Below, in pieces: positions 7,880 through 23,030 of a stretch of DNA of 41,805 nt. The stretch comes from Halococcus saccharolyticus DSM 5350 (GTDB taxonomy: Archaea > Halobacteriota > Halobacteria > Halobacteriales > Halococcaceae): NCBI RefSeq assembly GCF_000336915.1, contig NZ_AOMD01000012.1, forward strand, positions 136,087 through 177,891, written 5' to 3'. Position numbers and translations under genes: made by a program. Position 1 is the first letter of the stretch. Each line of letters opens with the position of its first letter. Under the pieces are notes generated by a model. The model did no database searches and was not told the origin of the DNA. It was given only the letters and a program-made list of their open reading frames with translations.

Positions 7880-8023
7880 TTACTGAGAGCCCCAGTCGGA
7901 GATACCGAGCACCGTATCACACTCCGGACAGGTCCAGACTTTCGGGGTGCTCGCCGCGCTCGCCTGTTCGAGTCGCTCGGCCCAGACCGTGATGTCGGCC
8001 TCGCAGCCGGGACACACTGCCAT
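7880..8023 (-). CDS. 47-residue two-CPxC zinc-ribbon protein
   Basis: A short frame on the minus strand starts with ATG at 8023 and stops with TAA at 7880-7882. It has two zinc knuckles, CPGC near residue 4 and CPEC near residue 32, separated by a Trp- and Glu-containing stretch, and ends ISDWGSQ. This is the layout of the small CPxCG-type zinc-finger proteins that are abundant and mostly uncharacterised in haloarchaea. Four evenly placed cysteines in an otherwise Cys-poor proteome make chance unlikely. It stands alone between the ThiN regulator and a secreted protein. The role may be protein or nucleic-acid binding; nothing in the sequence decides. Confidence 0.8.
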   Translation of the reverse strand: MAVCPGCEADITVWAERLEQASAASTPKVWTCPECDTVLGISDWGSQ

Positions 8024-8160
8024 GATTCACGATACCACGTGACGATGCTTGTAATTTCGGACACCCAACGGTTTCACCGTTATTTTGCAAGTGTGTCGGT
8101 TGATCCCGCCACTTGCTGCGGTGGATGCATGTTATTGGACACCATGAACGGCCGTCGCGC

Positions 8161-8167
8161 TTTTATT
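8161..8167 (+). promoter_or_regulatory. TATA box setting a GTG start
   Basis: ttttatt centred 27 bp before the GTG at 8191. This supports a leaderless message beginning at that GTG rather than at upstream in-frame codons, which would add a basic tail in front of the signal peptide. Confidence 0.55.
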
Positions 8168-8190
8168 CCAGTCCGTGCAACGAGCGTGTA

Positions 8191-8769
8191 GTGAACGCGA
8201 ACGACGCTGCGGTGCTCCTCGTCTCGCTGCTGCTCTGTGGAACCATGGGTCTGAGCGCCGGTTCGCAGGCCGGAGCCACGACGGCAGCCCAACCGACCAC
8301 GGAGACGGAACTCGGCGAGGAGGTCTCGGTGTTCATGCAACAACGCACCGCCGCGGCCAACGGCTCGGTCGATTCGGGGATGTGGATCGCCGCGTTCGAG
8401 CGTGCCGAGAACCAGTCCAACAAGCAAACCCTCGTCGAGCAGCGAATCACAACACTCCGGGGTCGCCTCAATCAGACTGACGAGCGACTGCGCACGTTTA
8501 CGCCGACGGAAACCAACCGATCGGTGCGTCAGAGCGCGAGGTGGGAACGGCTCGTGGCCGACGTCGCGGCGCTCCGAACGGCGATCAACGACGCAAAGAC
8601 CGCCGCGGCGAGCGCGGGCGTGAACGCCTCCGGACTGGACCAGCTCGCACGCCGCGCTGCGAACCTCTCCGTACCGAGCGCTGAGGCGGACAATCGATCG
8701 CAGGTCGACAGTCCCGATTCCGATCGTCCAGGCGATGCGGAGGGAACCGTCGCCTCGAAGTACGGCTGA
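8191..8769 (+). CDS. Secreted helical protein with many N-glycosylation sequons
   Basis: A 192-residue protein not matched to a named family. The N-terminus has a Sec-type signal (hydrophobic about 7-23, AAVLLVSLLLCGTMGL) followed by an Ala/Thr-rich mature start. The body is mostly predicted helix with heptad-like Leu/Ala spacing and an acidic C-terminus (SDRPGDAEG). It carries at least seven N-x-S/T sequons (NGS, NQS, NQT, NRS, NAS, NLS, NRS), a density expected of a surface glycoprotein. There is no clear lipobox or C-terminal anchor. The GTG start is supported by a TATA box at leaderless distance. It is followed after 119 bp by an ArsR-type regulator on the same strand. Confidence 0.75.
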   Translation: MNANDAAVLLVSLLLCGTMGLSAGSQAGATTAAQPTTETELGEEVSVFMQQRTAAANGSVDSGMWIAAFERAENQSNKQTLVEQRITTLRGRLNQTDERLRTFTPTETNRSVRQSARWERLVADVAALRTAINDAKTAAASAGVNASGLDQLARRAANLSVPSAEADNRSQVDSPDSDRPGDAEGTVASKYG

Positions 8770-8888
8770 CGGGCATTCCGCAAACCGCCACGACGTAACA
8801 CGAACGTCGTGAGCGTAGTCTCCGGTAGTCCGTCGTGAATACCTATATGGAGTCATCCTTTTGTCCGTGCGGCACTAACCACAGGTGA

Positions 8889-9578
8889 ATGGACTCAGCG
8901 GCGCTGCTCGATCTCCTCGGCAACGAGAACCGCCGGCGCATCCTCCGGCTGCTCGCCCGGCGACCGTGTTATGTCACCGAGATCAGTGAGTCGCTCGGCG
9001 TGAGTCCGAAGGCGGTGATCGGACACCTCCGGAAGCTGGAGGACGCGGGTCTCGTCGAGAGTCGGGCCGACGACGGTCGCCGGAAGTACTTCCGCATCTC
9101 GCGGAACCTCCGGCTCGAAGTCAACGTCTCGCCGTACGGGTTCGGGGCGAAAAGCGCCTACCCAGCGAGTTCGAGCCTCGATCTCGCGACCTGTCGGTAC
9201 GTCTCGATCGACGTTTCAGCGAGCGATACCAGCGAGCTGTCCGCACTCGCGGACGACCTCCAACGGCTCGACCAGCTTGAGGACGAACTCTCTCTGGCCC
9301 AGCGATGGGTCCAGGGCCGACTCACGTCGCTGCGCGACGCACTTACCGATCGGATCGAGGAGGGGCTCGCGGCCGACGGAGCGGGGAAGTTCGCGGACCA
9401 CGGCGACGCGCGCTTCTGCGCCGAGATCCTCGGCGCGATCGAGTCGGGGGCCGATACGTCCGATGCTATCGCCGAACACCTCGGTGTGCCGCTTCCGGTG
9501 GTCGAAGACGCGCTCGATCTCCTCTCGACGCACGACCTGGTTCGCGAAGACGACGATGGCTGGGAGATCGCGACATAA
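8889..9578 (+). CDS. ArsR-type winged-helix transcriptional regulator
   Basis: A 229-residue protein. The N-terminal winged helix (about 1-80) has the ArsR pattern LLGNENRRRILRLLA, then VSPKAVIGHLRKLEDAGLV and a wing ending GRRKYFRIS. The middle (about 120-155) is a coiled-coil-like segment. The C-terminus (about 175-229) looks like a second, degenerate HTH (DTSDAIAEHLGVPLPVVEDALDLL). No metal-binding Cys cluster of the ArsR/SmtB kind is visible, so a metal sensor is unlikely. The gene could control the secreted protein before it, but there is no direct sign of this. An A-run follows the stop codon. Confidence 0.88.
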   Translation: MDSAALLDLLGNENRRRILRLLARRPCYVTEISESLGVSPKAVIGHLRKLEDAGLVESRADDGRRKYFRISRNLRLEVNVSPYGFGAKSAYPASSSLDLATCRYVSIDVSASDTSELSALADDLQRLDQLEDELSLAQRWVQGRLTSLRDALTDRIEEGLAADGAGKFADHGDARFCAEILGAIESGADTSDAIAEHLGVPLPVVEDALDLLSTHDLVREDDDGWEIAT

Positions 9579-12188: not shown

Positions 12189-13463
12189 ATGAACCCGGGA
12201 GATCGCGTTCGCCTCACCCGCGACGGGCGGACCCACGAGGGCGTGTTGCTGCCGTCGACGACCGACGATCACGCCGTCCTCAAACTCGACGGCGGGTACA
12301 ACGTTGGTGTCGAGCGCGCGGACACGACCGTCAAAGTCGTCGAATCGGATGTCTACGACATCGGTGATGGAGAAGACGACGATTCTTCGACCGTCGAGTT
12401 CGACGACGACCTGCCGACGGTGGCGCTCATCTCCACCGGCGGAACCATCGCCTCGACGGTCGACTATCGGACCGGTGCGGTGACCGCACAGTTCGACGCG
12501 GAGGACGTCCTTCGGGCGGTGCCGGACCTCGCGGGCCGGGCGAACTACCGAGGGCGCGTCGTGGCGAACATCCTCTCGGAGAACATGACGCCCGGGGTCT
12601 GGCAGGACCTCGCCCACGCTGTCCACGAGGAGATCGAAAACGGCGCGGACGGCGTAGTCGTGATGCACGGTACCGACACGATGCAGTTCTCCGCGAGCGC
12701 GCTCGCCTTCATGCTCGATACACCTGTCCCGGTGGTCTTCACTGGGAGCCAGCGCTCGGCCGACCGTCCCTCCTCGGACAACGTGATGAACGCGGTCTGT
12801 GCGGTCGAGGCTGCAAAGAGCGACTGCGCCGAGGTCCTGGTCTGTATGCACGCGAGCGAGTCGGACGATCGGTGTGCGCTCCATCGCGGGACCCGGGTCC
12901 GGAAGAACCACACCTCTCGACGGGATGCGTTCCAAACTGTTGGAGCCGATCCGCTCGGCACGGTGGCGTACGGCGGCGACGATTCCGTCGAGGTGCGATT
13001 CCGACGGGAACACGCCGAGCGCGGCGCGGTCGAACTCGATCTTGCCTCCGATCTCGAAACCGATGTCGAGCTGGTGAAGTTCACGCCAGGGACCAGTGAG
13101 GCAGTGCTCGATGGCGTCGCGGGGAGTGCGGGGCTCGTGATCGAGGGCACGGGGTTGGGGCACGTTCACACCGACTGGATCCCACCGATCGCGGAACTCG
13201 TCGCGAACGGGACCAGCGTAGTGATGACCAGCCAGTGTCTCGGTGGCCGGGTCTGCGATCGGGTGTACGACACCGGGCGTGACCTCCTCGACGCAGGTGT
13301 CATCGAAGGCGAAGACCTCCTGCCGGGCACCGCGAAGGTCAAACTGATGTGGGCGCTCGCGAACGCCGAGGACGTCGCCACGACGATGGGAACCCCGATC
13401 GCCGGCGAGTGTACCGAACGCTCGGTACCGCCCGAGAACCACCCCGTTCCGGAGGCGCGGTGA
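12189..13463 (+). CDS. gatD: Glutamyl-tRNA(Gln) amidotransferase subunit D
   Basis: The asparaginase-like subunit of the archaeal GatDE enzyme, which turns Glu-tRNA(Gln) into Gln-tRNA(Gln) by releasing ammonia from glutamine or asparagine. 424 residues: a small N-terminal beta domain (about 1-75, beginning NPGDRVRLTRDG), then the L-asparaginase domain with the catalytic motifs STGGTIAST (Thr83, Thr86) and HGTDTM (Thr162, Asp163). GatE is not in this window; separate locations of gatD and gatE are usual. The ATG at 12189 starts exactly at the conserved N-terminus. The gene is followed one base after its stop by the GTG of a GNAT protein, so the two are likely co-transcribed. Confidence 0.96.
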   Translation: MNPGDRVRLTRDGRTHEGVLLPSTTDDHAVLKLDGGYNVGVERADTTVKVVESDVYDIGDGEDDDSSTVEFDDDLPTVALISTGGTIASTVDYRTGAVTAQFDAEDVLRAVPDLAGRANYRGRVVANILSENMTPGVWQDLAHAVHEEIENGADGVVVMHGTDTMQFSASALAFMLDTPVPVVFTGSQRSADRPSSDNVMNAVCAVEAAKSDCAEVLVCMHASESDDRCALHRGTRVRKNHTSRRDAFQTVGADPLGTVAYGGDDSVEVRFRREHAERGAVELDLASDLETDVELVKFTPGTSEAVLDGVAGSAGLVIEGTGLGHVHTDWIPPIAELVANGTSVVMTSQCLGGRVCDRVYDTGRDLLDAGVIEGEDLLPGTAKVKLMWALANAEDVATTMGTPIAGECTERSVPPENHPVPEAR

Positions 13464-13464
13464 C

Positions 13465-14382
13465 GTGAGCGCAACCGATATCACGATTCGACAGGCCAGA
13501 CCCGACGACTACGAGGCAGTCGCTGCGTTCACTCGTGAGACGTGGGCCGACCGTGACAGCGGCGACTACATCCCCGATATCTACCACGAGTGGATCGCGG
13601 GCGACGGCGACAGTCAACGAACCTTTCTCGCCGATTCGGGCGACGACGTCGCGGGCATCTGTCAGGGTGTCCTCCTCTCCGAACACGAGGCGTGGGCCCA
13701 GGGAATGCGAGTCAACCCCGACTACCGGGGCGAGGGACTGAGCACGCAGCTCAACGACGCGCTGTTCACGTGGGCGCGCGAGCGCGGCGCGACCGTCGTC
13801 CGCAACATGGTGTTCTCGTGGAACGCTGCCGGCCTCGGCGGATCGCGCGCCGTCGGCTTCGCACCGCTGTGTGAGTTCCGGTGGGCGCATCCCGAACCCG
13901 ACTCCGACGCCACCCTGCCGAGAGCCTACACGGTCGTCGACGATCCGGATGCCGCGTGGAGTTTCTGGCGGCGCTCGGACGCCCAGCGGGCTCTCTCCGG
14001 GCTCGCACTCGACGACGACGAGTCGTGGGCGATGTCCGAACTCACCCGTGAAGGGCTCCACCGCGCGGCAGACGAGACGCGAGTGTTCGCCGTCCGCCGC
14101 GAGGACGACGGCACGCGGGCGATGGCCCATCGAGTGCGTGACTACGAGCGTGAGACCGAGGGAGAGATCAAACACTGGACCGAGTACGGCGTCGGCGCGT
14201 GGACCGATCTCGGGGCCGCACGCGCGCTCTTTCGTGCGATCAGCGCGGATGCGGCTGCGGTGGGTGCTGACCGCGTGCGCGTACTCGTGCCCGAGACGCC
14301 ACGACACGTCTCCGACGTGGCGGCCGCCCATGTCGATCTCGGCGAGAATCCTGATTTCGTGCTCGAAGCCGCACTCGTCTGA
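13465..14382 (+). CDS. GNAT-family N-acetyltransferase (probably two GNAT halves)
   Basis: 305 residues. The N-terminal half (about 1-150) is a clear GNAT domain: beta start ITIRQARPDDYEAV and the acetyl-CoA loop VNPDYRGEGLSTQLN. The C-terminal half (about 180-305) has the fold pattern of a second, weaker GNAT unit (MAHRVRDYERE, then RALFRAISADAAAVG and RVLVPETPRHVSDV). The acceptor is unknown; such proteins modify small molecules or protein N-termini. The GTG start at 13465 lies one base after the gatD stop, which implies translational coupling. Whether this links it to tRNA amidation is doubtful. Confidence 0.88.
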   Translation: MSATDITIRQARPDDYEAVAAFTRETWADRDSGDYIPDIYHEWIAGDGDSQRTFLADSGDDVAGICQGVLLSEHEAWAQGMRVNPDYRGEGLSTQLNDALFTWARERGATVVRNMVFSWNAAGLGGSRAVGFAPLCEFRWAHPEPDSDATLPRAYTVVDDPDAAWSFWRRSDAQRALSGLALDDDESWAMSELTREGLHRAADETRVFAVRREDDGTRAMAHRVRDYERETEGEIKHWTEYGVGAWTDLGAARALFRAISADAAAVGADRVRVLVPETPRHVSDVAAAHVDLGENPDFVLEAALV

Positions 14383-14723: not shown

Positions 14724-15806
14724 TTACACCTGAAGCACGTCGTGGCGCTCCAGTTCGACGTCAGCCCCGACCGCCGACACAGTTCGGGTGGGCCATTCAC
14801 CGGTCGTCGTGAGTGGTTCGAACTCGTTTTCGGTCACCAGCATCGTGTCCTCGCTTTTCGCACTCTGAACTGTCGGATTCCACGCGTAGCCCATCGGAAG
14901 CTCGACCGGCGCGTCGTGTGTCGGCGTGGCGATCCACTCGCGGCCGGCGTAGCCCGCCGCGCCACCTTGGTGATGCGCGCGCCACTCGTCCGGATGACCG
15001 AGGGCGGCGTACGCGTCCTGAATTCGCTCGAAGACATCGGCTGCGGTACCAGCCGCGCAACCGACTTCCCGTGTCGCCGCGAGCGCGCTCGTCTCGACAC
15101 GGGCCGCGGTCGCGTGTCGGTCGTCGAGCCACGACGGCGGATCGAACGCCACGGTTCGCGTACAGCTCGCGTGGAGCCCCGCACGCCGTGCGGTCACTGA
15201 CACGAGGACGTACGATCCCAACTGTACGTCGGTCGGGGTGTAGTGGCGATACTGCTGAGCACGCTCCCCACTCCCGACCAACACCACGGGGGCGGCGATT
15301 CCCCGATCCGCGAGCGCCCCGGCGAGCCGTCCCGCGACTTCCCGCTCGGTGTCCCTCGGATCGAGCTCTCGACAAACTCCTTCGACGGCTGCGGCAGTGT
15401 CGCGACCGAGTTCGCGGTAGGCCGCGATGTCGGCGTCGACGAGCGGCTGTCGGAGCCCGCTGGCGTCGACGGACGCGAAGCCCGGAACGTCGAAATCCGC
15501 CGCGGCGGGCGTGGGTGAGCGGTCGGCAACTGCTTCCCCGAGGTCCGCCGTGTACCAGTCGGTCGTCTCGATGGCGACCCCATCGGGTAACTCCTCCTCG
15601 CGCAGTCGCGGGGCCTCGATGTTGTTCGTGACGACCGTCAACTCATCGCCGTCGTAACCGACGGCCGCGACGCCGACTGTGGCTTCCTCGTCGACGACGC
15701 TGTTCCCGCCAAGGAGCCATCCGAACGTGTTCGGCCGTCCGAACCACACTGCCGCGAGGTCGCGTTCGTCGAGGAACCCGTCGAGCCGCGCCCGTTTCGT
15801 TTCCAT
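14724..15806 (-). CDS. M24 (pita-bread) fold protein lacking most metal ligands
   Basis: 360 residues, creatinase/aminopeptidase P layout: N-terminal domain (about 1-125) and C-terminal pita-bread domain. In active M24 metallopeptidases the ligands are Asp, Asp, His, Glu, Glu. Here the equivalent places appear to be Ser203 (VLVSVT), Ser214 (ASCTRT), the His278-His279 pair (HHQGGAAGY), Asn310 (AWNPTV) and Glu319 (KSEDTMLVT). Three of five are changed, so a two-metal peptidase is unlikely. Creatinase shows that the fold can work without metal. The ATG at 15806 gives the usual start. It could process a proline-like or amidino substrate near the imino-acid cluster, but this is inference. It is usually annotated as an Xaa-Pro peptidase. 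Confidence 0.85.
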   Translation of the reverse strand: METKRARLDGFLDERDLAAVWFGRPNTFGWLLGGNSVVDEEATVGVAAVGYDGDELTVVTNNIEAPRLREEELPDGVAIETTDWYTADLGEAVADRSPTPAAADFDVPGFASVDASGLRQPLVDADIAAYRELGRDTAAAVEGVCRELDPRDTEREVAGRLAGALADRGIAAPVVLVGSGERAQQYRHYTPTDVQLGSYVLVSVTARRAGLHASCTRTVAFDPPSWLDDRHATAARVETSALAATREVGCAAGTAADVFERIQDAYAALGHPDEWRAHHQGGAAGYAGREWIATPTHDAPVELPMGYAWNPTVQSAKSEDTMLVTENEFEPLTTTGEWPTRTVSAVGADVELERHDVLQV

Positions 15807-15974: not shown

Positions 15975-16622
15975 TCACGACTTCTCGTCGGTCGGCTCGC
16001 ACTCACAGCCTCCCTCATCGATCAGCTCTTGGACGGTCGCGTGCGTTCCGCACTCGGTACACGTCACCGTGATATCGACGTAGACGTCGGGGTCACCGAG
16101 CGCGATCGCACCGGTCGAGCCGAGCTGATCGAGTGTGTTTTCGGTGACGACGACCGTTCGGTTGCGGAGCGCGGCGATCCGCTGGGCACCGCTGTCGATA
16201 CGGTCGCTGTCGGACCGCTCGGTCGACGCGCGCTCGACGCCGAGACACTCCTTGAGATGACGGTTGACCGTCTGGTACGACACGAAATCTCCCTCGATCG
16301 CGTCGATATCGACCCCGCCCCGGTCGAGCCGGCTGTGTGCCTGCGTCCTGACACCCTGGCTCACCTCGTCGTCGGTAAGCAGTCGGTAGGTGTTCTCGAC
16401 CTCGCCGTCGAGCGGGTTCAGCCCTTCGCGCTCCATTGCAGTCCGGAGGATCGACTCGTTCACGTAGTTGGCCAGCCCCCGGAGACTGTAGCGTTCGTCC
16501 TCTCGAGTCCAGTACTCCTGGAGGTTTTCGGCCACCCTCTCGAGTTCGTACTCGTCGATCACGCGATCGAGTTTGCATGACGGGCCACCCGCGTTCCCCG
16601 ACTTCGCGTCCGATTGTGCCAT
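15975..16622 (-). CDS. rdfA: Rod-determining factor RdfA
   Basis: 215 residues. The pattern is that of haloarchaeal RdfA, needed for the rod-shaped cell state in Haloferax volcanii: N-terminal KLDRVIDEYELERV, then ERYSLRGLANYVNESIL, PLDGEVENTYRLLTDDEVSQGVRTQA, the segment DFVSYQTVNRHLKECLG, and a C-terminal zinc-ribbon with CTEC and CEC. The ATG at 16622 starts the conserved part; the frame upstream is Arg-rich shadow. No structural partners (volactin, DdfA) are seen nearby. It is monocistronic, convergent with nothing. Several RdfA paralogues are common in one genome, so shape control by this copy is inferred from the family. Confidence 0.9.
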   Translation of the reverse strand: MAQSDAKSGNAGGPSCKLDRVIDEYELERVAENLQEYWTREDERYSLRGLANYVNESILRTAMEREGLNPLDGEVENTYRLLTDDEVSQGVRTQAHSRLDRGGVDIDAIEGDFVSYQTVNRHLKECLGVERASTERSDSDRIDSGAQRIAALRNRTVVVTENTLDQLGSTGAIALGDPDVYVDITVTCTECGTHATVQELIDEGGCECEPTDEKS

Positions 16623-16909: not shown

Positions 16910-17674
16910 TCAGCTGTAGGTGACGTTGATCTCCACGACGTTCGCAGCCTGGAGTACGAGCTCGGGGATTTCCTCGGCGAAACGCTCGCCTGTCAGCCGC
17001 GTTGTCGGGGCAGCCACGCTGATCGCCCCTAGTACCTCGTTGTCCCGGCCGAGGACCGGCGCTGCGACGCATTGGAGTCCCTCGACGCGTTCCTGACCGC
17101 AGTACGCGACGCCACGTTCGCGGATCTCGGCGAGCTTCTCGTGAAGGCGGTCGCGATCAGTAATCGTGTTCGGCGTCGCTGCTGGGAGGCCATGACGGTT
17201 GAGGATCTCGTCGACACGGCTGTCGGGGAGATGGGCGAGGATCGCCTTCCCGAGCGCGGTGTTGTGGAGATACCGTCGCTTGCCGGTATGGGTGTCGAGC
17301 GTGACGGCCTTCTCCCCGCGCGAGCGATAGAGGTACACTCCCCGGCCATGTTCTTCGACCATCAGGTTCGCGAGTTCGCCGGTCTCCGCCGCGAGATCCG
17401 CGACTTCCGGTCTCGCGACTTCGTAGATTTTCCGTCGCTTGCGGGCGTACTCGCCCATCTCGAAGAATCCCAGCCCGATCTCGTAGGAGTCACCGTCCTT
17501 GGTCACGTAGTCGTGCCGTCGAAGCGTCGCGAGATGGTCGTGGACGGTGCTCTTCGACATCGAGAGGTGGGTCGCCAGCTCCGTCACCCCCGCCCCGTCG
17601 AGCTCCTTCAGCGCCCTCACGACTCGGATGGTGTTCTCAGTGGTTCGGAGCGATGGCGTCGACGTCCCTTCCAT
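16910..17674 (-). CDS. IclR-family transcriptional regulator
   Basis: 254 residues: N-terminal winged helix (about 8-65; TTENTIRVVRALKELDGAGV, then MSKSTVHDHLATLRRHDYV) and C-terminal effector-binding domain (about 80-250; HNTALGKAILAHLP, GVAYCGQERVEGLQCVAAPV, GAISVAAPTTRLT). IclR proteins usually sense the substrate of a neighbouring catabolic operon. Here the adjacent genes are a proline-racemase-family enzyme and an FAD amino-acid dehydrogenase, so it is the likely regulator of that block. A TATA-like ctatttacc lies about 30 bp before the ATG (plus strand 17701-17707), suggesting a leaderless transcript. Confidence 0.93.
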   Translation of the reverse strand: MEGTSTPSLRTTENTIRVVRALKELDGAGVTELATHLSMSKSTVHDHLATLRRHDYVTKDGDSYEIGLGFFEMGEYARKRRKIYEVARPEVADLAAETGELANLMVEEHGRGVYLYRSRGEKAVTLDTHTGKRRYLHNTALGKAILAHLPDSRVDEILNRHGLPAATPNTITDRDRLHEKLAEIRERGVAYCGQERVEGLQCVAAPVLGRDNEVLGAISVAAPTTRLTGERFAEEIPELVLQAANVVEINVTYS

Positions 17675-17773
17675 GGTCGTATCGGTTGTCGCTCGGTTGG
17701 TAAATAGGTTGTTCCTGGCGGCCGAACGGCGTCGTAGGGGTGCCCTAAGTGGTCGTATGACCGGGACGGCCGC

Positions 17774-18805
17774 TCACCGGAGCACGAAGCCTTCGCCGAA
17801 CGGGTCCGCCGGATCGACGACGAACCGATGGCGGCCAGTGATGTGCGCAGAGCCCTCTACTCGCGGTCGAACCGCCTCGTATCCGCCGAAATCGACAGTC
17901 TCTGTGTACGAGCCCGTGAACGTCGAGCCGACGATACTCTCGACCACGAACCGTTCTCCCCTGTCGAGCTCACCGGCCGCGGCGCGGAGCGCGACCCGGC
18001 CGCTGACGCCGGTCCCTGTGGGGCATCGATCGACCTCGCCGTCGGCGAACACGCAGACGTTCCGGCTGTCGGCGTCCGCGCCGTGAGCGTCGCCCGTCAG
18101 GATCGTCCCGTAGAGAAAGCCGAGGTCGTCCTCGTGGGGGTGCTCGATCTCGATGGCGTCGTCGACCGCGCGCGTGACCGCTGTCCCGATCTCGATTAGC
18201 TCCCGAAAGACTGCCGGCGTGAGGTCGACGTCGAACTGGGAGACATCACAGTACGCGTAGAACGCGCCGCCGAACGCGATATCGAATTCGGTCGTTCCCC
18301 ACTCCGGAACAGTCACGGTCTCGTGTCTGGCGACGACGAACGACGGCACGTTCGTGAACTCGACCGTATCGACCCGGTCGCCGTCACGCTCGATCTCGGC
18401 CACCACAAGTCCGGCCGGGGTATCGATCGCAATCTCGCTCTCGACGTCCGGGAGGTACTCGGTTTCGGCGGCGATCGTAGCGAGCGCGACGATCCCATGG
18501 CCGCACATCGTGCTGTAGCCCTCGTTGTGCATGAACAGTACGCCGAAATCGGCGCGCTCGGTGTCCGGTTCGGTCGGGATCGCGCCGTACATGTCGGCGT
18601 GTCCGCGCGGCTCCCAGATCAGCGCCTTGCGGTACGCATCCAGCTTGCGCTCCATGTACCGACGTTTTTCGAGGAGCGTGTCGCCCGCGAGCGGCGGCAG
18701 TCCGTTGAGGACGACCCGCAGCGGCTCCCCGCCGGTGTGCGTGTCGATCGTTTCGACGGTCGTCCAGTCTGCTGGCGGTTGCCACTCCACATCGTCAGTC
18801 GTCAC
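17774..18805 (-). CDS. Proline-racemase-family enzyme, predicted trans-3-hydroxy-L-proline dehydratase
   Basis: 343 residues, PF05544-type fold beginning WTTVETIDTHTGGEPLRVV. Proline racemases and 4-hydroxyproline epimerases use two cysteines. Here the first is kept (Cys101, MCGHG) but the second position is threonine (Thr263 in DRCPTGTGVSGR instead of PCGTG). The Cys/Thr pair is the signature of trans-3-hydroxy-L-proline dehydratase, which makes delta1-pyrroline-2-carboxylate. A Cys at 261 lies two residues before the changed site. The GTG at 18805 is preferred; an ATG at 18889 is in frame, but it is overlapped by a TATA-like gatatatg. The gene is divergent from the FAD dehydrogenase and 99 bp upstream of iclR on the same strand. 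Confidence 0.9.
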   Translation of the reverse strand: MTTDDVEWQPPADWTTVETIDTHTGGEPLRVVLNGLPPLAGDTLLEKRRYMERKLDAYRKALIWEPRGHADMYGAIPTEPDTERADFGVLFMHNEGYSTMCGHGIVALATIAAETEYLPDVESEIAIDTPAGLVVAEIERDGDRVDTVEFTNVPSFVVARHETVTVPEWGTTEFDIAFGGAFYAYCDVSQFDVDLTPAVFRELIEIGTAVTRAVDDAIEIEHPHEDDLGFLYGTILTGDAHGADADSRNVCVFADGEVDRCPTGTGVSGRVALRAAAGELDRGERFVVESIVGSTFTGSYTETVDFGGYEAVRPRVEGSAHITGRHRFVVDPADPFGEGFVLR

Positions 18806-18885
18806 GGTTCGTCCCTGGCTGTCCGGTGCTCGGTCGTGACGATCGTCGTCAAATGTCCCATCACCGACGGGTACTCGCTGCCTGG

Positions 18886-18961
18886 GCATATATCTACGTG
18901 TGTAGCAAGAAGCTGACGACAGCAGACGGAATGAAACCACGACGACCACACGAGTTATGTA
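18886..18961. promoter_or_regulatory. Divergent promoter region of the imino-acid block
   Basis: Two TATA-like boxes: gatatatg on the minus strand (about 18887-18894) for the racemase-family gene, and ttatgta on the plus strand (18955-18961), 27 bp before the FAD-dehydrogenase ATG at 18984. The space between is the natural place for an IclR operator. Confidence 0.5.
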
Positions 18962-18983
18962 TGCCGGTCGAAAAAGAGAGGCC

Positions 18984-20141
18984 ATGCGGGTGAGTATCAT
19001 CGGTGGCGGCATCGTCGGCCTCGCCGCCTCCCACTATCTCGGCCAGCGCGGCGTCGACGTAGTCGTCCTCGAGAAATCCACCATCGGGGCGGGCAGCACC
19101 GATCGGGCGAACGGCGGGATCCGCGCCCAGTTCTCCTCACCGGTGAGCGCCCGCCTCTCACAGGAGAGCATCGCGGTCTGGAAGCGCTTCGAGGAGCTGT
19201 TCGACACCGCAATCGGCTACCGCCGACCCGGCTATCTCTTTCTCGCGCGGCGGGAGTCCACCGCGGAGCGCTTCCGCGAGAACGTCCGCCAGCAGAACCG
19301 TCTCGGGGTCGATAGCGAATTTCTAACGCCAGTCGAAGCGGAAAACCGGTGTCCAGAACTCCGGACAGAGGAGTTTCGCGGTGCGACGTACCGTGCGGCC
19401 GATGGGTTCGCTGACCCCCACCTCGCGCTCCAGGGCTTTTCGGCTGCGGCGAACGAGGCCGGTGCGGAGATCCGGACCGGCGTCGCGGTGACCGATGTCC
19501 TCCAGGAGGAGACGGGCGAGCGCGTGACCGGCGTCCGCACCGACGAGGGGACGATTGAGTCGGACTACGTGGTGAACGCGGCGGGCGCGTGGGCGAGCCG
19601 AGTCGGTAAGATGGCGGGTCTCGACCTCCCGATCGTGCCGCGCCGCCGTCAACTCATGGTCGCCGACCCCGAGATCCCGATCGATTCCTCGATACCGTTC
19701 ACGATCGATCTCGATCAGAGCGTCCACTTTCGCCCCGAGCGCGACGGCGGCGCGGTCGTCGGCGGTCACTTCGCCGACGCCGATCCGACGATGAACCCCG
19801 ACGACTACCGGAAGAAGATGGATCTCGACTGGGCTGCCGAGGCGATCGAGGCAGCGGCGGAGTGCGCCGACTACTTCGGTCCCGACTCGCGGGTCAAGCG
19901 TGGGTGGGCCGGGCTCTACGCGGTGACGCCCGACCATCACCCCATCATCGATGAGACGTTGCCAGGGTTCGTGACCGCAGCGGGGTTCTCCGGCCACGGA
20001 TTCATGCAGGCCCCCGCGACCGGCAAGCTCGTCGCGGAACTGATCGACGAGGGCGAACCGTCGCTCGTCGATGTCTCCTCGCTGGGAGCCGACCGATTCG
20101 ATCGTGACGCCCATCTCGAAGAGGGGACGGTCATCAACTGA
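18984..20141 (+). CDS. FAD-dependent amino-acid dehydrogenase (DadA / sarcosine oxidase beta type)
   Basis: 385 residues with an N-terminal dinucleotide-binding fold (VSIIGGGIVGLAASHYLGQ, then the Glu of VVLEK), the DAO-family segment GSTDRANGGIRAQFSS, and the C-terminal FAD motif around residues 330-350 (TAAGFSGHGFMQAPATGKL). The family oxidises secondary or D-amino acids (proline, D-proline, sarcosine, hydroxyproline) and passes electrons to the respiratory chain. Its partner enzymes suggest an imino-acid substrate. Start: the ATG at 18984 lies 27 bp after a TATA box and directly at the Rossmann strand; an ATG at 18957 would overlap the box. The next gene in the same direction is the aminotransferase, 84 bp away with its own promoter. 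Confidence 0.92.
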   Translation: MRVSIIGGGIVGLAASHYLGQRGVDVVVLEKSTIGAGSTDRANGGIRAQFSSPVSARLSQESIAVWKRFEELFDTAIGYRRPGYLFLARRESTAERFRENVRQQNRLGVDSEFLTPVEAENRCPELRTEEFRGATYRAADGFADPHLALQGFSAAANEAGAEIRTGVAVTDVLQEETGERVTGVRTDEGTIESDYVVNAAGAWASRVGKMAGLDLPIVPRRRQLMVADPEIPIDSSIPFTIDLDQSVHFRPERDGGAVVGGHFADADPTMNPDDYRKKMDLDWAAEAIEAAAECADYFGPDSRVKRGWAGLYAVTPDHHPIIDETLPGFVTAAGFSGHGFMQAPATGKLVAELIDEGEPSLVDVSSLGADRFDRDAHLEEGTVIN

Positions 20142-20225
20142 GCAGTCGATCACGAACCGGTCGCAACCCAGTCGTGTGCCGATGGTGCTGGTGGTTTTAT
20201 TATCGCCGGTGTGGAGGATCGGTGC

Positions 20226-21389
20226 ATGGCAGATGCCGACCGCGCAGCTAGCCGTATGGAACGAGTCCCGTTCTCCGGTATCAGGACGATCTTCGAGGAG
20301 TGTGACCGGCTCGAAGCCGCGGGCCGGGACGTCGTCCACCTCGAGATTGGTCGGCCGGACTTCGACACGCCGGCCCCGATCGGTGACGCGGCGCGCGAGG
20401 CGCTCGCCGACGGCCACGTCCACTACACCTCGAACTACGGGATCGAACCGCTCCGGAGGGCGATTGCGGACAAACTGGCGGCCGAGAACGATGTCGAGTA
20501 CGATCCCGACGGCGAGATCGTGGTGACGACGGGCGCGACCGAGGCGGTGCTCGTCACGATGCTCGCGCTCGTCGAGCCGGGTGCGGAGGTTCTCGTCCCC
20601 GATCCACGGTGGACCTACGGCCCGATCACCTCGCTCGCGGGCGGCGAGCCCGTTCCCTACCGACTCGATCCGGCGACGGGCTACCAGCCCGACCTCGACT
20701 CGCTGCGGGCGGCAGTCTCGGATCGAACCCGGCTCCTCGTGTTGAACAGTCCACACAACCCGACTGGCGGTGTCGTCGACGGGAACCATCTCGATGCGGT
20801 CGCCGATTTCGCCGTCGACAACGACCTCCTCGTGCTCTCCGACGAAATTTACGAGAAGATCCGGTACGGGGACGCCGCCCATCACAGCCCGGCCGCGCGG
20901 GACGCGCTCTTCGACCGGACGATCACGATCAACGGGTTCTCAAAGGCATATTCGATGACCGGCTGGCGGCTCGGCTACCTCGCTGCTCCTGCCGAGCTGG
21001 TCGATTCCATCGTCCGCGTCCGCCAGTATACGACGACGTGTGCGCCCTCGCTCTCCCAGCACGCGGGCGTCCGTGCCCTGGAGAGTGGGCTCCACGAGCC
21101 GATGGTCGAGGCGTTCGCCCGTCGCCGCGAGCGCGTCCTCGAACGGATCGACGCGATCCCTGGAATGTCGTGTCCGGCCCCCGCCGGCGCGTTCTACGCA
21201 TTCCCCACCACGCCTGCCGGCCACTCCGATGCAGAGGCGTTCGTTACCTCGCTCCTCGCGGATACAGGTGTCGCGTTCGTTCCCGGCACCGTGTTCGGCG
21301 ACGCCGGCGAGGGGCGGTTCCGGATCGCCTACGCCAACTCTCGCGAGCGGATCGACGAGGCGTTCGATCGACTCGAAGCTTGGCTGTAG
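20226..21389 (+). CDS. Class I pyridoxal-phosphate aminotransferase (AspB type)
   Basis: 387 residues, fold type I. Cofactor residues seen: Asn174 in NSPHNPTGG, Asp206 and Tyr209 in SDEIYEK, and Schiff-base Lys240 in NGFSKAYSMTGWRLGY. The substrate-carboxylate Arg lies near the C-terminus in RFRIAYANS. It would move an amino group between an amino acid and 2-oxoglutarate, but the exact pair cannot be read from sequence. In this context it may handle an amino-oxo intermediate of imino-acid breakdown. Both a TATA-like ttttatta (20195-20202) and GGAGG (20213-20217) precede the ATG at 20226, which supports this start over an ATG at 20211. Confidence 0.93.
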   Translation: MADADRAASRMERVPFSGIRTIFEECDRLEAAGRDVVHLEIGRPDFDTPAPIGDAAREALADGHVHYTSNYGIEPLRRAIADKLAAENDVEYDPDGEIVVTTGATEAVLVTMLALVEPGAEVLVPDPRWTYGPITSLAGGEPVPYRLDPATGYQPDLDSLRAAVSDRTRLLVLNSPHNPTGGVVDGNHLDAVADFAVDNDLLVLSDEIYEKIRYGDAAHHSPAARDALFDRTITINGFSKAYSMTGWRLGYLAAPAELVDSIVRVRQYTTTCAPSLSQHAGVRALESGLHEPMVEAFARRRERVLERIDAIPGMSCPAPAGAFYAFPTTPAGHSDAEAFVTSLLADTGVAFVPGTVFGDAGEGRFRIAYANSRERIDEAFDRLEAWL

Positions 21390-21487
21390 CCCGAAACGGC
21401 CGAAGAACGCCCTCGTGGGTGGATTTTGGCCAGCGACGACGATCGCGACAGGTAATTTTCGTCCTCTCTGTCGGGAATATCGATCAC

Positions 21488-21526
21488 TAATTATATGTGG
21501 GGTGGTGTGGTACCGATGCTCGGAGG
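21488..21526 (+). promoter_or_regulatory. Promoter and ribosome binding site of the symporter
   Basis: TATA-like taattata at 21488-21495, and GGAGG at 21522-21526 ending 10 bases before the ATG at 21537. Unlike most genes here, this one has a leader with a Shine-Dalgarno sequence. Confidence 0.55.
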
Positions 21527-21536
21527 AACGTAACAC

Positions 21537-23030
21537 ATGGTACAAGCAGGTGCGTACACAGCCGTCGGCTTGGTCGGCTACTTGCTGATCGTCGTGGTCA
21601 TCGGCTACTGGGGATCGAAGAAGGTCAACTCCGAGGAGGACTTCTTCATCGGCGGTGATCAGCTTCCTGGGTGGGCGCTCGCGCTTTCCGAGCGGAGTTC
21701 CGGCATGTCCGGCTGGCTGCTGCTCGGTATTCCCGGGCTGGCGTGGTCAGCGGGGCTGTCGTCGGTCTGGGTACTCGTCGGCACGGCGGGCGGCGCGATC
21801 GTTCAGTGGATCATCTTCTCGCGGCCGTTCATGGAGGGGCGCAAGGAGACGGGAGCGATCACGCCGATCGGCCTCCTCGCCGAGAAGATGCCGACCGACT
21901 CCCCGATCGTGCGCCTGCTGCCGGCGCTGGTGACGTTTTTGTTCTACATGGGCTACGTCGGCTCGCAGTTCCTCGCCGGCGGGAAGATCTTGGAACAGAT
22001 CTTCGGAATCGCGCCGTTGACGGGTCTGCTGATCGTCGCGGCACTGATCATCCTCTACTCGCTCGCGGGCGGGTTCCTCGCGGTGGTCTGGACCGACACG
22101 ATGCAGGCACTCCTGATGGTCTTCACGCTCATCGTCCTGCCCGGCGTGTTGCTCGCGGGCGTCCTCACCGACCCCAACCAGTCGCTGATGGGTGGGCTTG
22201 CGGCATCGGGCGGCGGTAGGGCGTCGTGGTTCGGCGGGAAGAGCGGTGCGGCGGCGCTCGTTCTGCTCGGAGCGAACCTGAGCTGGCTCTTCGCGTACTT
22301 CGGTGGCTACCCCCACTTGAACGTCAGGATGATGGCGCTCCGCAACGACCGTGATCGCCGGACAGCGATCATCGTGGCGTCGGTCTGGGGTGTGTTGACT
22401 GCCATCGGTGCGGTGCTCCTCGGGCTCCTGACGCGCGTCCTTCACGGTGCGCCCCAATCGGTTGCGGCCGATCGTGAGATGGTGCTGCCGTTCATGGTGC
22501 TCGAACACACTCCCGGACTGCTCGGTGGGGTGTTGCTCGCCGGTGCGCTCGCCGCGATGATGTCGACAGCGGACTCCCAGCTCGTCGTGGCGAGCTCCGC
22601 CGCCGCACAGGACGTGTACAACAAGGTCGTCACGAAGAACCGCGAGTTCAGCGAGGCGACCCGGCTCCGGATCTCCCGGATTGCGACGCTGCTCGTCGGC
22701 GTCGTCGGCCTCGTGATCGCGGCCTCGGTCCAAAACCTCGTCTATACGCTGGTGAGTTACTCCTCGACCGGCCTGTTCTCGGCGTTCGGCCCGGCGTTCA
22801 CGCTGCTGTTCTTCTGGCGTGACCGCTTCTCGAAGGCGGGACTCGTCGCCGCGTTCGTTGCCGGCCCGGCGGCCACGATCCTGTGGGTCTCGCTCGGGAT
22901 GACGTCGATCGTCACCGTCCGGATCGTCGCCCCACCGATCGGCTTCGCGGCCGCGATCGCCGCCTCGTTGCTCTGGCCGCGCTCGGAGGCGGCCGAAACG
23001 ACCACCGGTGCGCCAGCGGCTCAGGACTGA
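21537..23030 (+). CDS. Sodium:solute symporter, PutP-like
   Basis: 497 residues with about 13 hydrophobic segments, the SSS-family pattern. Landmarks are the N-terminal YWGSKKVNSEEDFFIGGDQL, the sodium-site region LSERSSGMSGWLLLGIPGLAW, the central YSLAGGFLAVVWTDTMQALL, and the later ALAAMMSTADSQLVVASSA. These match proline/sodium symporters (PutP) most closely, so uptake of proline or a related imino acid or betaine driven by sodium is the best guess. It lies in the cell membrane. It is placed between the aminotransferase and the aldehyde dehydrogenase, which supports a catabolic uptake role rather than osmoprotection. Confidence 0.93.
   Translation: MVQAGAYTAVGLVGYLLIVVVIGYWGSKKVNSEEDFFIGGDQLPGWALALSERSSGMSGWLLLGIPGLAWSAGLSSVWVLVGTAGGAIVQWIIFSRPFMEGRKETGAITPIGLLAEKMPTDSPIVRLLPALVTFLFYMGYVGSQFLAGGKILEQIFGIAPLTGLLIVAALIILYSLAGGFLAVVWTDTMQALLMVFTLIVLPGVLLAGVLTDPNQSLMGGLAASGGGRASWFGGKSGAAALVLLGANLSWLFAYFGGYPHLNVRMMALRNDRDRRTAIIVASVWGVLTAIGAVLLGLLTRVLHGAPQSVAADREMVLPFMVLEHTPGLLGGVLLAGALAAMMSTADSQLVVASSAAAQDVYNKVVTKNREFSEATRLRISRIATLLVGVVGLVIAASVQNLVYTLVSYSSTGLFSAFGPAFTLLFFWRDRFSKAGLVAAFVAGPAATILWVSLGMTSIVTVRIVAPPIGFAAAIAASLLWPRSEAAETTTGAPAAQD

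Follow-up and report, generated by a model that had tools for sequence, protein, structure and literature searches.

The window analysed here, a stretch of 41,805 nucleotides from Halococcus saccharolyticus DSM 5350, encodes a 360-residue protein with the pita-bread fold of M24 peptidases, in which, as judged from alignments, four of the five metal ligands of that fold are gone and Glu319 alone is retained. Sequence comparison places it in a distinct, unnamed M24-fold family of Halobacteria and some bacteria. A role of some kind in sugar catabolism is probable for this family, and we tentatively favor the reading that the 360-residue protein is a metal-free aldonolactonase.

Fold and metal-ligand positions

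The open reading frame at 14724-15806 on the minus strand is real. Its start, the ATG at 15806, is supported by an N-terminus that is conserved in 107 family rows. Peptidase_M24 (PF00557) was the only Pfam family over its cut-off (42.9 bits versus a cut-off of 23), and zero NCBIfam families were matched at E<=1. The AlphaFold2 model, for which 39 sequences from the window and the genome contigs served as input, reached a pLDDT of 92.4 and a pTM of 0.88. In a Foldseek search against the PDB, prolidase and aminopeptidase P came out on top (E 1e-19, TM up to 0.76), with creatinase, EutD, and Spt16 ranked below them, and prolidases were also the closest solved structures by phmmer and an 8-sequence profile. 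The M24 fold claimed in the initial annotation is borne out by the Pfam match, the model, and the structural neighbors, and can be regarded as a secure, high-confidence prediction.

The catalytic ligand set of M24 peptidases is D, D, H, E, E. Aligning the protein with P. furiosus prolidase by phmmer pairs D209 with S203, D220 with S214, H284 with G282, E313 with N310, and E327 with E319, and a profile-profile alignment gave the same frame. The serines at the two Asp positions, the asparagine at the first Glu position, and the retained Glu319 had been read correctly from the sequence at the outset. The proposal of His278 or His279 as third ligand did not stand: in the alignment, H278 falls opposite prolidase H280, which is the first His of HSLGHG (HxxxH) and not a ligand; the ligand in that enzyme is H284. 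In the ligand column, our protein has Gly282, and each of the four other M24 proteins encoded by the same genome has His. Since H278 is at a non-ligand position and Gly282 at the ligand-His position, the number of ligands lost is four, not three as initially counted. Among the remaining members that were compared, V or T stands at position 203 and N, S, or A at position 214, and a competent metal site is absent from every member seen. Two further M24 proteins of the same genome (L112, G000:C21, and L114, G000:C18) seem, in a rough alignment, to have non-canonical residues at the Asp ligand positions; L114 is most like the DMSP lyase DddP, at 90.8 of 600 bits, far below the cut-off.

The closest known systems are M24B prolidases and Xaa-Pro aminopeptidases (PDB 1pv9, 1wy2, 5cnx), which have the same two-domain fold over the full length (TM 0.71-0.76) and a common motif frame comprising TRT, the HxxxH region, and EDT. 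The identity is only about 18%, and the D, D, H, and E of these peptidases are replaced by S, S, G, and N. The family also has its own invariant HHQGG, R289, and K317, and its gene context is one of sugars rather than peptides. An Xaa-Pro peptidase with a metal site made of other residues would agree with these nearest folds, but with four ligand positions lost, only Glu319 constant as a ligand, and the ligand-His position always Gly, we consider it highly improbable. The suggestion of a metal-free enzyme other than an Xaa-Pro peptidase, as in creatinase, fits all the evidence, the sequence predicting no metal site, one misassigned ligand notwithstanding.

Creatinase does not require metal, and it presumably has a His at the position of H188, which we take to correspond to its catalytic His232. 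It has the same fold (PDB 1chm, 7yto, 1kp0; TM 0.67-0.72), with about 16% identity. No creatine context was seen for the family, and the family profile matched 42 PDB sequences, none of them a creatinase. The ectoine hydrolase EutD/DoeA is a ring-opening hydrolase on the M24 fold. It also superimposes (PDB 6twk, 6yo9; TM 0.64-0.66), but the family profile matches EutD in the PDB at E 0.15 over 30 residues only, and the NCBIfam models TIGR02993 and NF038259 leave the 360-residue protein unmatched at E<=1; other M24 proteins of the genome match these two models weakly. Creatinase and EutD as structural neighbors, together with a proline-racemase/hydroxyproline-like cluster and an IclR regulator in the window, might speak for metal-free hydrolysis of a nitrogenous compatible solute of the ectoine, creatine, or betaine type. 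Such an activity is very unlikely in view of the searches above, and also because the hydroxyproline-like genes are not conserved beside orthologues and the other contexts are sugar genes. The ectoine/creatine reading was rejected on the NCBIfam and PDB family-profile searches, and the creatine, ectoine derivatives, and betaines put forward earlier as substrates found no support.

Conserved pocket and extent of the family

In 107 haloarchaeal rows, S214, G282, and N310 occur in all 107, and position 203 has S in 102 rows and T in the other 5. Also fixed in these rows are R217, H278-H279-Q280-G281, R289-E290-W291, P311, E319, and T321. The Ser/Ser/His/Asn/Glu set, whose conservation had been proposed as a check, is therefore constant in haloarchaea at S214, H278, N310, and E319 and nearly so at S203; across both domains, its two serine positions vary (S/T/V at 203, S/A/N at 214). 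The residues invariant in archaea and bacteria in an 8-way alignment are R182, H188, R217, HHQGG, R289, N310-P311, K317, and E319-D320-T321. Because the substitutes at the ligand positions are fixed across the 107 rows, the loss of the ligands is not a matter of chance or decay; a different, constant pocket has replaced the metal site (Table 1).

Table 1. Coordinates in the window of the coding sequence and of the residues discussed.
Feature	Position	Strand	Remarks
CDS, 360-residue M24-fold (pita-bread) protein without metal site (predicted)	14724..15806	-	Open frame, PF00557, AlphaFold2, Foldseek
His188 codon	15243..15245	-	105/107 haloarchaeal rows, invariant cross-domain; aligns with prolidase H192; proposed acid/base
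Ser203 codon	15198..15200	-	First Asp ligand position (prolidase D209)
Ser214 codon	15165..15167	-	Second Asp ligand position (prolidase D220)
Arg217 codon	15156..15158	-	Invariant
HHQGG motif (His278-Gly282)	14961..14975	-	Gly282 at His-ligand position; invariant in 107 rows and 8-way alignment
Arg289 codon	14940..14942	-	Invariant; at the place of prolidase H291
Asn310 codon	14877..14879	-	First Glu ligand position (prolidase E313)
Lys317 codon	14856..14858	-	K in 105/107 rows and all cross-domain rows
Glu319 codon	14850..14852	-	Sole ligand-position residue kept (prolidase E327); proposed second acid/base

The family is sharply delimited. Across 295 genomes of the phylum, the scores of members range over 264-509 bits, and every other M24 protein falls below 50. 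Matches were found in 39 of 60 relatives of the genome, 37 of which were counted as members, the other two being weak, partial matches. A tblastn-confirmed scan of GTDB genomes kept 80 haloarchaeal loci, and plasmid relatives at about 29-36% identity were found in Thermus, Pantoea, Deinococcus, and cyanobacteria. Thermus thermophilus HB8 has a relative with the accession WP_014677649.1. Members lie within Halobacteria, plus one match outside the order. This match is a clear member at 264 bits (G119:C37:2426-3310); its genome belongs to the phylum but not to the order of the window's genome, a hint of gene transfer. Zero relatives were found in a scan of viral contigs, and the HHQGG motif string was not found in a literature search.

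Gene contexts and co-occurrence

The copy in the window is a lone gene for which sugar-gene neighbors were not found, and the evidence for a sugar context comes mainly from relatives. Directly upstream of it lies a gene for the rod-determining factor RdfA (15975-16553, minus strand, 229.7 bits). The region 12189-14382 encodes GatD (tRNA amidotransferase subunit D) and, 2 bases later on the same strand, a GNAT acetyltransferase. The region 16910-23030 contains an IclR regulator, a DAO-type FAD oxidoreductase, a class I aminotransferase, a PutP-like sodium symporter, and a proline-racemase/trans-3-hydroxyproline-dehydratase-like protein (381 bits, below the equivalog cut-off of 540), and is probably a cluster for proline or hydroxyproline catabolism. 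An operon of the family gene with the proline-racemase, IclR, and symporter genes was rejected, as the arrangement is not conserved beside orthologues.

In haloarchaea, chromosomal copies are for the most part solitary. Of 92 haloarchaeal (mostly chromosomal) loci, 7 had genes of a sugar panel in the vicinity, versus 2 of 40 control windows (p=0.72), indicating no enrichment; L164, L166, and L167 were left out of this test since they had been chosen for nearby matches and had supplied part of the panel. Clustering of neighbors at 80 loci gave zero partner genes conserved across haloarchaeal copies. Individual loci are more telling. In one genome (G019, L163), genes for KDPG aldolase, gluconate dehydratase, the family protein, and KDG kinase (471 bits, over cut-off) follow in this order on one strand, with glucose dehydrogenase (GDH, 299 bits) divergent from the operon, so that, of the steps that turn glucose into KDPG and then cleave it, the cluster lacks gluconolactonase alone. 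In another (G052, L164), the family gene lies tail to tail with a 7-bladed lactonase (PF10282), and GDH is near. Elsewhere, it accompanies PTS enzyme I, aldehyde dehydrogenase, and pyruvate kinase (L167 and L168, two genomes of genus g3), has aldehyde dehydrogenase and pyruvate kinase as neighbors and KDG kinase in the vicinity (L009), or adjoins the D-xylose 1-dehydrogenase gene gfo6 (L048).

The haloarchaeal plasmid copies form a clade nested in the haloarchaeal tree. All nine viewed are near arabinofuranosidases, sugar ABC transporters, XacR, gfo6, or sugar-acid dehydratase genes, and plasmid copies are closer to the nearest GH51 than under random placement (Fisher p 2e-7, a value that overstates independence, the records being related). 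The family copy on a Haladaptatus salinisoli plasmid (L132, about 8001-9070) was matched in two pieces, has no gene annotation, and may be broken. In bacteria, the gene was viewed at four loci on Thermus plasmids, where it follows xylA and xylB and precedes a Gfo/Idh dehydrogenase, with a 4-base overlap with xylB in three of the four and an SDR likewise in three. In Pantoea, it overlaps a GMC oxidoreductase gene, followed by an SDR, in an operon that starts with an RbtT/DalT/CsbX-type (pentitol) MFS transporter (469 bits, over cut-off). In Deinococcus, the overlap is with an aldehyde dehydrogenase gene, and genes for sugar ABC components and L-fucose isomerase lie alongside. The Nostoc gene overlaps malQ, and in Gloeothece a glucoamylase gene is nearby.

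Co-occurrence gives a second line of evidence. Among genomes at least 90% complete, the family gene was present in 24/24 genomes with GDH, and GDH in 0/10 genomes without the family gene (counts 24/7/0/10, p=1.7e-5); one genome per genus gave 12/2/1/15 (p=1.7e-5), and KDG kinase followed the same pattern (p=1.3e-4 per genus), all of these associations being partly confounded by shared phylogeny and genome size. GDH of the tested type is absent in 12 of the 37 genomes carrying the family gene. MR/MLE copy number is also higher with the family gene (median 9 versus 3, p=3.7e-6) but partly tracks genome size, for which reason the GDH test was preferred. The window's genome has GDH (310 bits), and neither SMP-30 nor a PF10282 lactonase was found in it.

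These patterns meet a published gap. In the haloarchaeal semi-phosphorylative ED pathway, a canonical gluconolactonase was reported missing in 18 of 21 genomes (PMC3404096), and Natrinema J7-2, which is reported not to use glucose, has GDH and lacks gluconolactonase (PMC3402447). Spontaneous hydrolysis of the lactone is slow in vitro (PMC9795676), though it could, without any enzyme, explain the missing gene.

Candidate reactions in sugar catabolism

The range of substrates can be narrowed down to those of sugar catabolism, and this link, combined with the published pathway gap, is the new element of the present analysis. We infer an enzymatic role, a lactone as substrate, and the identity of the acting residues. 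The 360-residue protein would belong to an unnamed family of M24-fold enzymes that work without metal in aldose catabolism, and its substrate would be an aldonolactone (glucono-, xylono-, or arabinono-lactone) released by sugar 1-dehydrogenases. Its slot in the pathway would be the step between glucose dehydrogenase and gluconate dehydratase. Binding of the polyol and activation of water would fall to His188, Glu319, the HHQGG histidines, Lys317, Arg217, Arg289, and Asn310. Catalysis would be of the acid/base type without metal, like that of creatinase and EutD, which attack an sp2 carbon of their substrates. An SMP-30 gluconolactonase or the Haloferax pentonolactonase XylC would catalyze the proposed reaction at the same point in the pathway, but SMP-30 is unrelated to the M24-fold family and metal-dependent (PMC9795676).

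Known lactonases coexist with the family gene, SMP-30 in L130 and the PF10282 protein adjoining it in L164, which counts against a lactonase. SMP-30 and the family gene show neither co-occurrence nor exclusion (p=0.76). Coexistence and independence together mean that there is no pattern of replacement. Nor is a lactone expected in the cyanobacterial malQ/glucoamylase contexts or beside the Thermus xylose isomerase. Further points against a lactonase are the negative panel test, the 12 genomes that carry the gene and lack this type of GDH, and the report that Natrinema J7-2 does not use glucose. An aldose 1-epimerase (mutarotase), in which the same acid/base pair would open and close the hemiacetal ring, fits all contexts, even those that do not suit a lactonase (xylose isomerase, arabinofuranosidases, and malQ/glucoamylase). 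Glucose or xylose dehydrogenase, or else xylose isomerase, would thereby receive the anomer it needs, and the two invariant acid/base candidates, H188 and E319, would suit a mutarotase. GalM (PF01263) and RbsD/FucU (PF05025), which would share this reaction on unrelated folds, were each found in 0 of 60 relatives in searches with positive controls, a weak test in that genomes without the family gene also lack both. Mutarotation is partly spontaneous, however, no precedent on this fold is known, and the operon in L163 is missing precisely the lactonase step. Although doubtful, the mutarotase is the main rival, held close behind the lactonase because of its fit to the bacterial contexts without a lactone and the absence of known mutarotases.

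The diversity of the sugar contexts would also accommodate another sugar-linked function. The protein could hydrolyze an ester, amide, or amidine, or be a lyase or isomerase, with a sugar acid or sugar-amine as substrate, or it could be a regulator that binds sugar without catalysis. The same fold serves the non-peptidase Spt16, ranked in the Foldseek search, and lyases such as DddP (PMC4108388). We regard this as unlikely, and a loose binding role fits poorly with a polar pocket that is invariant in archaea and bacteria and better suited to catalysis.

Returning to the aldonolactonase, the long-missing haloarchaeal gluconolactonase/aldonolactonase might, somewhat more doubtfully, be a metal-free M24-fold lactonase shared with sugar operons of Thermus, Deinococcus, and Pantoea. 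The gap described for haloarchaea (PMC3404096, PMC3402447) thereby gains a specific candidate gene for gluconolactonase. If the proposal is true, it would mean new chemistry for the M24 fold, and a family that public database records annotate as "M24 family metallopeptidase" or "aminopeptidase P family" would need a new name.
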